46,980 nt of DNA, taken from Acidobacteriota bacterium. GTDB lineage: Bacteria; Acidobacteriota; Terriglobia; Terriglobales; Acidobacteriaceae. The stretch spans positions 1 to 46,980 of the forward strand of contig JABBOG010000029.1 of NCBI GenBank assembly GCA_019351975.1, given 5' to 3'. Positions 33,248 to 44,308 of the stretch are shown one piece after another. Position 1 is the first letter of the stretch. Each line of letters begins with the position of its first letter. Position numbers and translations under genes: made by a program. A model generated the notes under the pieces. That model worked only from the letters and a program-made list of their open reading frames with translations. It made no database searches and had not been told where the DNA came from.

Positions 33248-34474
33248 ATGCGTTATCCTGATATCCCTATGCGCTATGGATTCTGGCTCCCCGTCTTCGG
33301 CGGCTGGCTTCGCAACATCGACGACGAACAGATGCCCGCCACATGGGAGTATGTTCGCGATCTCGCGCTGCAGGCTGAAGCCCTCGGCTACGACCTCACC
33401 CTCATCGCCGAGCTCAACCTCAACGACATCAAAGGCCCCGAAGCCGACTCCCTCGACGCCTGGTCCACCGCCGCCGCCCTCGCCTCCGTCACCCGCAAGC
33501 TCGAACTGATGGTCGCCGTCCGCCCCACCTTCCACTCCCCCGCCCTGCTCGCCAAACAGGCCGCCAACATCGACCGCATCAGCGGCGGCCGCCTCACCCT
33601 CAACGTCGTCAGCTCCTGGTGGGCCGACGAAGCACGCAAGTACGGCATCCCCTTCGACGAGCACGACGACCGCTACGCCCGCACCTCCGAGTGGCTCGAC
33701 GTCCTCGACGCCTGCTGGCACCACCAGCACACCTCCCATCACGGTCGTTTCTACAACATCGAAGACAACATCCTCAGCCCCAAACCCTTTCCCCGCCGCA
33801 CCTACTCCGGCGCGCATCCCAACCAAACGCCGTCATCTCGACCGGAGCCGCAGCGCAGCGAAGCCGCAGTGGAGAGACCTGCAGGTTCCCTCGCGCCGGG
33901 TGCCCCATCACAAGATGCCAACTCCGCCACCAACCTCTCAGTCCTTGATCCCTCCTCCCTGATCCCTTCCCGCCCCACCCTCTACGCTGGCGGCGAATCC
34001 GAGACAGCCAAGAACCTCATCGCCGCCAAATGCGACGCCTACCTCATGCACGGCGACGACCCCAACACCATCGCCGCCAAGATCGCCGACATGCGCGCCC
34101 GCCGCGCCCACCACCCCCACCTCCCGCCCATGACCTTCGGCGTCACCGGCTACTGCATCCTCCGCGACTCCGAAGCCGAAGCCCAGCGCGAACTCACCCG
34201 CATCACCTCCGCGCCCGACCCCAGCCAATCCCCCGCAGGCTTCGCCAACTTCCAGCAGTGGATCACCGGCTCGCAGCTCGAAAAAAAGCTCTCCCTCCGC
34301 GACTACTCCGTCTCCAACCGTGGCCTCCACTCCGGCCTCATCGGCACCCCCGAAACCATCGCCCAGCGCCTCGCCGACTTCGAAGGCGCTGGCTGCTCCC
34401 TAGTCCTCCTCCAGTCCTCCCCGCAACATACCGAGATGGCCCGCTTCGCCGCCCAGGTCATGCGCAGCAGCTAG
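33248..34474 (+). CDS. LLM-class flavin-dependent oxidoreductase with in-frame insertion
   Basis: A 408-residue bacterial luciferase-like (SsuD/alkanesulfonate monooxygenase-type) protein: YGFWLPVFGGWLR, LQAEALGYD, AVRPTFHSPALLAKQAANIDRISGGRLTLNVVSSWW, and RPTLYAGGESETAKN. It would use FMNH2 and O2; the substrate is unknown. About 55-58 residues (nucleotides about 33805-33970) have low-complexity, non-family sequence between KPFPRR and RPTLYAGG, and contain repeat-like DNA. The frame is preserved. The start may also be 33269. The 3' end overlaps the convergent USP gene by 17 bp. Confidence 0.82.
   Translation: MRYPDIPMRYGFWLPVFGGWLRNIDDEQMPATWEYVRDLALQAEALGYDLTLIAELNLNDIKGPEADSLDAWSTAAALASVTRKLELMVAVRPTFHSPALLAKQAANIDRISGGRLTLNVVSSWWADEARKYGIPFDEHDDRYARTSEWLDVLDACWHHQHTSHHGRFYNIEDNILSPKPFPRRTYSGAHPNQTPSSRPEPQRSEAAVERPAGSLAPGAPSQDANSATNLSVLDPSSLIPSRPTLYAGGESETAKNLIAAKCDAYLMHGDDPNTIAAKIADMRARRAHHPHLPPMTFGVTGYCILRDSEAEAQRELTRITSAPDPSQSPAGFANFQQWITGSQLEKKLSLRDYSVSNRGLHSGLIGTPETIAQRLADFEGAGCSLVLLQSSPQHTEMARFAAQVMRSS
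33829..33908 (+). repeat. Repeat-derived insert inside the LLM oxidoreductase
   Basis: Within the extra segment, an internally repetitive stretch (gccgcagcgcagcg...gccgcag) runs into cgggtgccccatcac, whose gggtgccccat is the left core of the REP-like family seen at 37-44 kb. The codons encode low-complexity residues unlike the LLM family. The element is read in frame. Confidence 0.6.
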
Positions 34475-37098: not shown

Positions 37099-37141
37099 TG
37101 GGTGCCCCATTCGTGACAGCCTCATCGTCACGGGTGGGGTG
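37099..37141 (+). repeat. REP-like palindrome (family C), copy 1
   Basis: Reads gggtgccccattcgtgac, a short loop, then gtcacgggtggggtga. The arms pair (GTGAC/GTCAC and CCCCA/TGGGG). It is 24 bp after the GH79 stop and may act as its terminator. Same orientation as the copy upstream of the RAYT. Confidence 0.75.
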
Positions 37142-37169
37142 AGTAAAGATTGCTCTTGCGCAGTTCACG

Positions 37170-37226
37170 CACCCCACCCAAGGGCAAAAACCGCATGGAT
37201 GGGGCACCCGACGTGGGTGGGCCACT
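37170..37226 (-). repeat. REP-like palindrome (family C), copy 2, inverted, with a gtgggtgggccac tail
   Basis: An inverted copy (caccccaccca...catggatggggcaccc, 37170-37209) faces copy 1 across 28 bp, forming a pair of REPs in opposite orientation. It is followed by gtgggtgggccac (37213-37225), a small GC palindrome that recurs near 42115. Together the two copies fill most of the 164-bp gap 37075-37238, which has no gene. Confidence 0.72.
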
Positions 37227-37238
37227 TGCCCGCCCTAT

Positions 37239-38848: not shown

Positions 38849-39137
38849 ATCCACGTGACCTCCGACCGAAACACTTTGCCACTACGGTGACGAACCATGA
38901 AAGGAGACATGCGGTTTCCTGGGTAGCAATTATGTTCTGGTATTTTTTTGACGATAATCCAAAAATGCTGGCAGCGAAAAATATTTGATTGTGACGGATT
39001 GGCGAGGTTGCCGGGTGCCCCGTTCAGGACATCTTCACCGTCATGAGTGGGAATCAAAATTCCCAGCACTGCCCTCGAACCAGCTTCGCAACACATCCAC
39101 GTTCCACCTTTCGCCTCAACCCATCTACACTCTATCC
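38849..39137. other. Divergent intergenic region with a degenerate REP copy
   Basis: This 289-bp region separates the secreted-protein gene from glmS. It is AT-rich around 38941-38990. A worn family C element lies at 39012-39052 (cgggtgccccgttca...tcatgagtggga). An 83-codon minus-strand frame crosses it but shows no ribosome site or protein-like composition. Promoters for both genes must be here, but no convincing -35/-10 pair was found. Confidence 0.55.
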
Positions 39138-41099
<1,962 letters not shown>

Positions 41100-42102: not shown

Positions 42103-42148
42103 CGACGGGTGGGCGGGTGGCCCACCCATAACCAGCCACTAACTCTTA

Positions 42149-42192
42149 GGGTGCCCCATTCATGCGCGTTCTTTTTGCGCATGGGTGGGGTG
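42149..42192 (+). repeat. REP-like palindrome (family C) upstream of the RAYT
   Basis: Reads gggtgccccattcatgcgc, loop gttcttttt, gcgcatgggtggggtg. The arms (ATGCGC/GCGCAT and CCCCA/TGGGG with a small internal mismatch) form a strong imperfect hairpin. It ends 28 bp before the RAYT ATG. A short gggtggcccaccc palindrome at 42115-42127 precedes it. Confidence 0.85.
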
Positions 42193-42220
42193 GTACGGTC
42201 CCTGACGTACCATAACTCTC

Positions 42221-42748
42221 ATGCCGAGTCGTCTGAAACGCTATCAACAGCAAGGCGACTACCACGCCATCAACTTCAACTGCTACCACCGGCTCCCATA
42301 TCTCAACGACGACCACACCCGCATTGTCTTCGAACAAACCCTTGAACAACTCCGCCAACGCCACCAGTTCTTTCTCTTCGGCTACGTCATCATGCCGAAT
42401 CACGTCCACCTTCTCCTTACCGAACCAAAGCTCCACGCGTTAGCCACCACGCTAAGCGTCCTCAAAGGAGAAACCTCCAAACTCCTCAAAGGAGATCGAC
42501 CTCAGTTCTGGCAGAGCCGCTACTACGACTTCAACGTCCTGACCCATCAGAAGTATGTAGAGAAGTTGAAATACATTCACCGCAACCCAGTCGAACGAGG
42601 CCTCGTCGAAAAACCAGAAGACTGGCCATGGTCGAGCTACCGCCATTACCTCACCGGCGAACAAGGTCGCGTCGAGATCGAATCCGAGCACACATGGAAT
42701 CGACGCGAAAAATTACGTTCCCCACCCACCGTGATAAAGCCACGATGA
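42221..42748 (+). CDS. REP-associated tyrosine transposase (RAYT, TnpA-REP)
   Basis: A 175-residue HUH-superfamily Y1 transposase of the RAYT branch. HVH (61-63) in MPNHVHLLL is the metal-binding HUH motif; Tyr118 in YIHRNPVERG is the candidate nucleophile, followed by WPWSSYRHY, typical of RAYTs. In characterised cases these proteins cut and join single-stranded REP palindromes and are vertically maintained, not mobile as ISs. Family C palindromes lie upstream (42149-42192), across the 3' end (42719-42760) and just beyond (42788-42829). The gene looks intact. Confidence 0.92.
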   Translation: MPSRLKRYQQQGDYHAINFNCYHRLPYLNDDHTRIVFEQTLEQLRQRHQFFLFGYVIMPNHVHLLLTEPKLHALATTLSVLKGETSKLLKGDRPQFWQSRYYDFNVLTHQKYVEKLKYIHRNPVERGLVEKPEDWPWSSYRHYLTGEQGRVEIESEHTWNRREKLRSPPTVIKPR

Positions 42749-42760
42749 ATGGGGCACCCA
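42719..42760 (-). repeat. REP-like palindrome (family C), inverted, at the RAYT 3' end
   Basis: Read on the minus strand it is tgggtgccccattcatcgtg, a loop, cacggtgggtgggg. It overlaps the last ten RAYT codons and its stop, so the C-terminus of the protein is encoded by the repeat. Its orientation is opposite to the copies at 42149 and 42788. Confidence 0.8.
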
Positions 42761-42787
42761 AACCATCGAGTGCATCTTGGGTATTTA

Positions 42788-42829
42788 GGGTGCCCCATTC
42801 ATGCGCGCACTTTGCGCATGGATGGGGTG
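42788..42829 (+). repeat. REP-like palindrome (family C) downstream of the RAYT
   Basis: Reads gggtgccccattcatgcgc, loop gcactt, tgcgcatggatggggtg. It is nearly identical to the copy at 42149-42192 apart from the loop, so the RAYT gene lies between two direct copies with an inverted one in the 3' end. Confidence 0.85.
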
Positions 42830-43534: not shown

Positions 43535-43640
43535 TACACGCGAGACAATTCGCAAACCTTCGAACAAACCCTCGAACCACTCCCCCAGCGCCACTCGTTC
43601 TTCCTCTTCGCCTACGTCCTCCTGCCGAAACACACCCAGC
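43535..43640 (+). pseudogene. Decayed RAYT fragment
   Basis: About 80 bp from 43557 align with the intact RAYT (around 42325-42405) with 13 mismatches by my count, encoding FEQTLEPLPQRHSFFLFAYVLLPKH against FEQTLEQLRQRHQFFLFGYVIMPNH. The HUH motif is lost (KHTQ in place of NHVH) and neither the beginning nor the tyrosine region is present. It is a relic of a second RAYT copy. The rest of the gap 43466-43758 shows no gene. Confidence 0.75.
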
Positions 43641-44159: not shown

Positions 44160-44192
44160 CACCCATGCGCGCACTTGCGCATCCATCGGGTA
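44160..44192 (-). repeat. Partial REP-like palindrome (family C)
   Basis: cacccatgcgcgcacttgcgcatccat keeps the inner hairpin (ATGCGC/GCGCAT) and part of the outer arms, then reads cgggtattta as beside the copy at 42788. It lies in the 205-bp gap before the GlsB-like gene, which holds no other feature I can name. Confidence 0.65.
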
Positions 44193-44308
44193 TTTAACCT
44201 CCGCACCACCACTACGCCATATCCAAACCCACCCCGCGAACAACCTTTTCCCTCCCCGCCGACTCTCACTCCTGTTCCCAAAACTACGCACCACCAAGGA
44301 GGCACCAC

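Follow-up and report, generated by a model that had tools for sequence, protein, structure and literature searches.

In the genome of a soil bacterium of the Acidobacteriota, we observe a locus that is very probably a REPtron, that is, a single-copy gene for an HUH/Tyr1 single-strand endonuclease flanked on either side by REP hairpins of its own. The locus lies within a stretch of 46,980 nucleotides, hereafter the window, which is contig C88 of a draft genome of 3.9 Mb in 132 contigs. This reading is based on the membership of the protein in the RAYT family, hairpin copies above chance, stem covariation, the matching of RAYTs with their REPs, an excess of the REP core in genomes that carry a RAYT, empty sites in related species, and the strand asymmetry of the hairpins. 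The anatomy of the locus, the RAYT–REP matching, the genome-wide copies and their presence or absence between related species are seen directly. The features of the window are listed below, where R2 denotes a model of a hand-drawn 13-bp stem made from 12 sequences; two of the 14 copies (C83 and C67) have longer stems and were omitted.

37100..37139, + strand: left half of a REP doublet, 5 kb upstream of the RAYT gene (R2 61.2 bits, training set; fold z -3.3)
37170..37209, - strand: right half of the REP doublet (R2 46.1 bits for 37172-37209, training set; fold z -1.6, weak)
39013..39052, + strand: degenerate REP before glmS (R2 51.5 bits, training set)
42149..42190, + strand: upstream REP, GGGTGC head and then hairpin, with the head away from the gene (R2 53.8 bits, training set; fold z -5.1)
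42221..42748, + strand: RAYT (TnpA-REP) gene, 175 aa (NF047646 102.4 bits; Pfam Y1_Tnp 2.3e-10; PDB 4er8 4.4e-8)
42720..42759, - strand: downstream inverted REP (R2 57.2 bits, training set; fold z -4.0)
42788..42827, + strand: third REP, a direct copy of the upstream REP (R2 52.5 bits, training set; fold z -5.3)
43558..43638, + strand: partial second RAYT gene, a remnant with 84% identity to 42328-42408
44160..44195, no strand assigned: decayed palindrome without a head, unscored as a copy (outside the 39 R2 matches at E <= 10)

The original prediction of an intact HUH/Y1 transposase of the RAYT branch is borne out by the open reading frame at 42221-42748, which is uninterrupted and encodes the HUH motif (H61-V62-H63), the catalytic Tyr118 and the motif FWQSRYYDFNV. 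With its HUH motif and single catalytic tyrosine, the protein carries the class 2 signature Y---NP. Its score against the curated RAYT model NF047646 lies above the cut-off of 80 bits, and among solved structures it is closest to E. coli TnpA-REP (PDB 4er8). All 82 aligned proteins keep H61, H63, Y118, N122 and P123, while position 62 is a valine in 70 of the 82. The host holds three related RAYTs of this clade, which are the window gene and one gene each on contigs C11 and C45, and the two sister proteins are 53% and 46% identical to the window protein. Two more distant RAYT-like host genes (L024 on C68 and L028 on C77) are flanked by other palindromes, such as GGGGCTTCAGCCCC, and the host genome thus seems to hold several REP systems. 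The RAYT remnant at 43558-43638 sits between the hairpin at 42788 and the decayed palindrome near 44160, and may be what is left of a decayed tandem REPtron.

As had been proposed, two direct copies of the palindrome, at 42149(+) and 42788(+), flank the gene, and the inverted copy said to run into the stop codon does so: the REP at 42720-42759(-) shares 29 bases with the end of the RAYT gene, among them its TGA at 42746-42748, so that the final residues of the protein are encoded by the repeat. Further copies had been placed at 37099, 37170, 39012 and 44160; the first three are scored by R2, while the fourth lacks a head, falls outside the R2 matches and looks decayed. The heads of the doublet at 37100-37209 point outward over a span of 110 bp in a REPIN-like arrangement, of which the window has one. 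For glmS, behind the degenerate REP, the true start is most likely the ATG at 39139. The core GGGTGCCCCATTC occurs seven times in the window with up to two mismatches against a shuffle mean of 1.00, and none of 100 shuffles reaches seven; one of the seven sites, at 33898, has no hairpin behind its head. Model R2 scores six window copies at E < 1e-4, and as these are among its 12 training sequences, the score is no independent test of them. Just outside the hairpin heads at the RAYT gene and at the doublet, we also observe a short repeat (42107-42128 versus 37214-37235) that is 86% complementary.

Among the 12 aligned copies, the 13-bp stem that follows the five-base GGGTG is paired in 94.8% of cells, and it shows 15 double-change cells compared to 4.0 in shuffles, none of 500 of which reaches 15. 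An alternative model, R1, which used the RNAalifold structure, was dropped because it paired the head bases. When five of the window copies are folded as single-stranded DNA, the head strand beats all 200 shuffles in four, whereas the fold of 37170-37209 is weak, with 13 of 200 shuffles folding equally well. In the three copies that flank the RAYT gene, the head-strand stem pairs fully through T.G wobbles, while on the opposite strand the same bases form internal loops or mismatches. The head strand is the more stable at 42149 (-13.9 versus -12.3 kcal/mol), at 42788 (-15.8 versus -13.0 kcal/mol) and at 42720 (-9.7 versus -6.8 kcal/mol). Of 128 hairpins flanking RAYTs of relatives, 88 fold better as the head strand and 32 as the other strand, with 8 equal, in a set that had been picked with credit for wobbles. 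A symmetric recount of the same 128 is weaker, with 75 T.G against 45 A.C; per hairpin, 47 lean one way, 18 the other and 63 tie, with related copies non-independent. The strand asymmetry is not general, and the tendency in relatives is moderate.

Across the host genome, the pattern GGGTGSCCCA has 64 sites, compared to 6 for the reversed pattern as control. On reading all 64, we score a hairpin behind 47 and none behind the other 17. Most of the 47 can be sorted into families matching the three related host RAYTs. Family I, around the window RAYT (GGGTGCCCCATTCATG...), has nine copies by stem pattern; family II, around the C11 gene (GGGTGCCCCATCTTCG...), has three by eye; and family III, around the C45 gene (GGGTGCCCCACATCTCG...GAGATGTGGG), has 30 by stem pattern, with paired stem changes. 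Three of these 30 have a longer and different upper stem. A conserved 3' tail, considered for family III, amounts to a weak tendency at most. Counting the 12 sequences it was trained on, model R2 returns 39 matches at E <= 10 and 19 at E < 0.02, from a scoring that covered 150 of 2394 first-look candidates. At both host sister RAYTs (C11 and C45), the downstream REP is direct rather than inverted, which counts against the REPtron reading. At several host sites, including L201 and L210, single or tandem copies of CGGGTGC/CGGGTGCC stand directly beside the hairpin head.

Of these 47 hairpins, 17 overlap gene-like open reading frames called by a gene finder based on codon usage, and 30 lie between genes. 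One copy, in front of dnaX, was removed from the gene overlaps by eye, which brings those outside genes to 31, and one in-gene match (C107) looks like chance, leaving 15 of the 47 in genes. With 66% of the examined sequence gene-like, the window included, and 34% non-gene, the 30-31 intergenic copies are an excess (p about 1e-5). A genome-wide search for the core, with a copy count and a measure of intergenic bias, had been set beforehand as the test of the original prediction, and few copies without such a bias as the outcome that would speak against it. What we find instead is 47 hairpins in several families with an excess of 30-31 between genes.

For relatives, we scanned a collection of 84,980 species and retained the best 80 of 504 confirmed loci, all of which have an acidobacterial title. 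In 57 of these best 80 loci, the exact 9-mer GGGTGCCCC, a count independent of the hairpin finder, is found 400 bp or less from the RAYT, and it is 14 times as dense near the gene as in farther flanks (124 in 62,862 versus 65 in 459,988 bases). In several of the 23 loci without it, there are inverted hairpins whose heads are variants such as GGGTGGCCCA. One locus (L118) has an internal stop and was dropped from the protein and hairpin counts, leaving 79 usable. In the expected orientation, a head plus hairpin is found upstream in 65 of these 79, downstream in 63, on both sides in 54 and on either in 74; in the wrong orientation, the corresponding numbers are 12 upstream, 10 downstream and 1 on both sides, and 20 of 905 far 365-base pieces have one on one strand. 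Because the finder accepts only cores that resemble GGGTGSCCCA closely, head tallies lean to that core. Relatives with a RAYT and no palindromes had been named as a second adverse outcome; 74 of 79 loci carry a hairpin. Counting against the REPtron reading, five loci lack such a hairpin and 25 of the 79 miss one side or both. Some loci among the best 80 come from Candidatus Acidiferrum and Sulfotelmatobacter, and the pairing of gene and hairpin may thus reach beyond the host family, despite no overall genome-wide excess there. At two loci (L061 and L073), four REP cores follow the RAYT in one orientation at steps of 41-51 bases.

The stems on the two sides of one RAYT are similar (0.73), while similarity to the stems of other RAYTs is 0.11 (permutation p <= 2e-4). 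The stem on a gene's own other side is the best match in 30 of 54 RAYTs and within the top three in 43, and the more distant two RAYTs are, the more distant their REPs tend to be (Mantel rho 0.28, 0/2000). Of 11 listed pairs of RAYTs that share a genome or contig by record name, seven have hairpins on all sides. In six of these seven, three of them from one genome, the own-side match is clearly higher; the exception is L087/L134, which counts against the REPtron reading.

The head of these hairpins varies much less than the stem. Of the 128 hairpins flanking RAYTs, the four bases before the three C's of the stem are GTGC in 105, GTGG in 16 and another sequence in 7, a tally that leans to the core near GGGTGSCCCA, with TG fixed, that the finder wanted. 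In the window copies the head is GTGC, extended to GGGTGC. The GT(A/G)G directly 5' of the stem that marks the GTAG superfamily is absent from the window copies, and the CGTC superfamily, with its CGTC tag and no associated transposase, differs both in its tag and in that a RAYT is associated here. The earlier remark that the core is unlike enteric and Pseudomonas REPs holds as far as GTAG REPs are concerned.

Among 73 loci with a single head type, residue 20 of the protein is a serine in 64 of 65 RAYTs with a C head and in one of eight with a G head (Fisher 4e-8), this residue having been chosen after the fact as the best of all alignment columns. On the tree, the G head needs four changes, and the supported branches alone force four. 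On average, residue 20 tracks the head in 3.5 of 4 contrasts, and in none does it change the opposite way; at p 0.125-0.5, the contrasts are too few for significance. The exceptions with a C head are the window RAYT itself (Asn20), the C11 protein (Cys20) and L107 (Gly20), while L066, with a G head, keeps the serine. Counted along the alignment, residue 20 corresponds to Asn19 of 4er8 and would lie in the first strand; in E. coli, residues in strand 1, around strand 4 and at the C-terminus are described as contacting GTAG (PMC8266576). We offer only tentatively, as a possibility we would not favor, that Acidobacteriota hold a RAYT/REP lineage with its own GGGTGC head, whose last base has switched between C and G about four times and is read by Ser20. 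If residue 20 does read this base, the head specificity of a RAYT would be set by a readable and swappable contact.

In 150 genomes of the same family, the core is found 8761 times compared to 1844 for the control. A RAYT of the clade is present at E <= 1e-35 in 103 of these genomes and absent at that threshold from 47, and the core excess is 9.8 per Mb in the former versus 2.4 in the latter (p 2e-9). The excess also rises with the number of RAYTs (Spearman 0.43), and neither statistic is corrected for shared ancestry. Twelve of the RAYT-less genomes exceed 5 per Mb; ten of these were rechecked at E 1e-3, at which six have weak or partial matches and four have none (G034 with 192 sites, G035 with 106, G052 with 55 and G067 with 30). 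The REP populations of G034 and G035 may have outlived their own enzyme. In 14 of the 103 RAYT-bearing genomes, the ratio of core to control is under 2; together with the four genomes without a match, this counts against the REPtron reading and indicates that RAYT and core are loosely coupled at present. In a phylum survey of 119 genomes that are at least 90% complete, the 13 from the host family have 1044 cores versus 166 controls, and the enrichment within the family is 5- to 6-fold. The 106 genomes of 56 other families together have 2559 versus 2571, or about 1-fold; raised counts are seen there in f22 (699 versus 395 in 10 genomes, mild), f20 (60 versus 27 in 6) and f9 (47 versus 27 in 1).

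The 15 in-gene copies are in frame, and the family is not purely extragenic. By Pfam matches and sequence, the host proteins are TsaD, RNase R, an M3 peptidase, MutS, MutL, a LigD-type ligase, the large subunit of exonuclease VII, SecA, an asparaginase-like protein, a beta-lactamase-like protein, a SpoU methylase, a radical-SAM protein, two PMT_2-type proteins and the C-terminus of the RAYT. Eleven of the 15 lie on the sense strand, an excess that is not significant (p 0.12), and sense copies of family III mostly read PGAPHLASEMW and near variants. Empty sites were sought for three of the 15: TsaD, the M3 peptidase and RNase R. For TsaD, a search of 28 genomes of the genus gave 26 with a match, the host included, and the site is empty in all 25 aligned same-genus orthologues. 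For the M3 peptidase, 15 orthologues were found, one of which (L152) breaks off at the region, and all 14 that run through lack the 37-residue stretch holding the hairpin. Of 13 aligned RNase R orthologues, two (G161 and G163, the latter with a variant head) carry such a hairpin in the same linker and 11 have none. Since these copies are absent from same-genus orthologues, REPs have come or gone since the species split. A second kind of in-frame repeat (KGTGFSP...GA-APE) occurs alongside REPs in the genes for TsaD (L219) and the beta-lactamase-like protein (L198); in the host TsaD it coincides with about 55 extra residues that are wholly or mostly missing in the aligned same-genus orthologues. 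A repeat of GTCATCTCGACCGGAG type lies near the hairpin inside MutS (L231) and the M3 peptidase (L042).

These empty sites bear on the alternative that survives best, in which the RAYT is domesticated with a cellular role, for example in repair or structure, and the REPs are relics now serving as binding sites. It draws on the single-copy, divergent nature of the RAYT genes, on the degenerate state of some REP copies and on the genomes that keep REPs without a RAYT, while the in-gene copies missing from orthologues of TsaD (25/25) and the M3 peptidase (14/14) show gain or loss after the species split, with which a second role would still be compatible; we consider it unlikely, with a chance that should nonetheless be reckoned with. 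Much less probable is an IS200/IS605-type insertion sequence that left solo copies of its subterminal hairpins behind and whose gene still jumps as a unit. The window protein is indeed a Y1 transposase, with a decayed second copy of its gene 0.8 kb away, but the IS200/IS605 model NF033573 gives 25.8 bits, below its cut-off of 55, whereas the RAYT model passes. Moreover, a DNA comparison finds no near-identical second copy of the gene in the host genome, where it matches only its own remnant and the 66%-identical C11 gene, the sister proteins are only 46-53% identical, and the hairpins far outnumber the related genes (47 versus 3). Weakest of all, and already disfavored, is a reading in which intrinsic terminators or mRNA-end hairpins of an ordinary kind happen to lie near the RAYT and the core is a regulatory motif, which would suit the 31 of 47 copies between genes but not the 15 inside reading frames, the 6-fold enrichment in the 13 family genomes against about 1-fold in the 106 others (f22 mildly raised), the strongly biased orientation relative to the RAYT, or stems that match on both sides of one RAYT and differ between RAYTs of one genome.

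Under the REPtron reading, the REPs would spread as non-autonomous elements. By analogy with studied members (PMC8266576), we infer cleavage, strand choice and the agency of the RAYT in this spread. The RAYT probably recognizes the single-stranded hairpin on the strand with the 5' GGGTGC head, and would cut beside it with Tyr118 and probably rejoin it elsewhere. In the window copies, full pairing through two T.G wobbles on the head strand, versus a mismatched internal loop on the other, could let the enzyme tell the strands apart. Each related RAYT would serve its own REP family, with the head common and the stem private, and insertions that keep the frame could survive inside genes as short linkers. 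RAYT recognition of REPs and their ongoing movement thereby become testable questions outside Proteobacteria: one protein clade offers a near-constant head, freely changing stems and natural single-base head switches on the tree, while insertions in conserved genes whose counterparts in sister species are empty at the site make REP mobility itself testable. The head also suggests that REP lineages may have escaped searches restricted to GT(A/G)G.

When compared to known systems, the locus is closest to E. coli TnpA-REP and the REPtrons of groups 2 and 3, as these are described in PMC8266576 and PMC2817692. Shared with them are the HUH/Tyr1 protein, the single gene between inverted REPs, the 5' head followed by a hairpin, irregular stem pairs and a REP family of its own for each RAYT. 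The difference lies in the head, which is GTGC here, extended to GGGTGC, and GTAG or GTGG in theirs; GT(A/G)G is given as the head of REPs in PMC2817692, and canonical REPs are said to carry GT[AG]G in PMC6006769. The E. coli residues reported there to read GTAG (E100, H101 and R104) align, near the fourth strand, with Asp103, Phe104 and position 107, of which the first is present in 82 of 82 aligned proteins, the second in 70 of 82, and the third is variable. Among the TnpA-Y1 subclasses of the same source, likenesses include the class 2 Y motif (Y---NP), a WQ motif, a length of about 175 aa and genes flanked by hairpins. Its Table 1 lists no subclass with the combination EHVH, WQ and Y[IM]HRNP of our clade, the nearest being 2.6 and 2.7; the window protein has NHVH where the clade has EHVH.

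REPs inside genes, often those for replication and repair, are known for both GTAG and CGTC REPs according to PMC3733652, and like the Rickettsia palindromic elements treated there, the hairpins we observe are kept in frame. Those known intragenic elements are tagged GTAG or CGTC, whereas ours form a GTGC-headed family with matching RAYTs in the genome. In literature on acidobacterial RAYTs, REPs and TIRYTs, as far as titles and passages go, we found no description of the GGGTGC head, and among the matches listed for GGGTGCCCC in literature text, none is about REPs by title. The nearest precedent is in PMC3733652, which describes 'TIRYT' genes, RAYT-like and with terminal inverted repeats, in four acidobacterial species, the proteins being from T. 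saanensis, K. versatilis, A. capsulatum and G. mallensis. The likeness, drawn by description rather than by protein clade, is in the phylum and the flanking repeats, and for one of the three Koribacter genes the flanking repeats were noted as a repeat family. There, the repeats are called terminal inverted repeats unrelated to REPs, with GGGGWSAS quoted as the common motif, and nowhere in the main text do the letters GGTG appear. The locus is thus very probably a REPtron of a known kind, set apart by its head, and the acidobacterial TIRYTs of 2013 partly foreshadowed it (PMC3733652).
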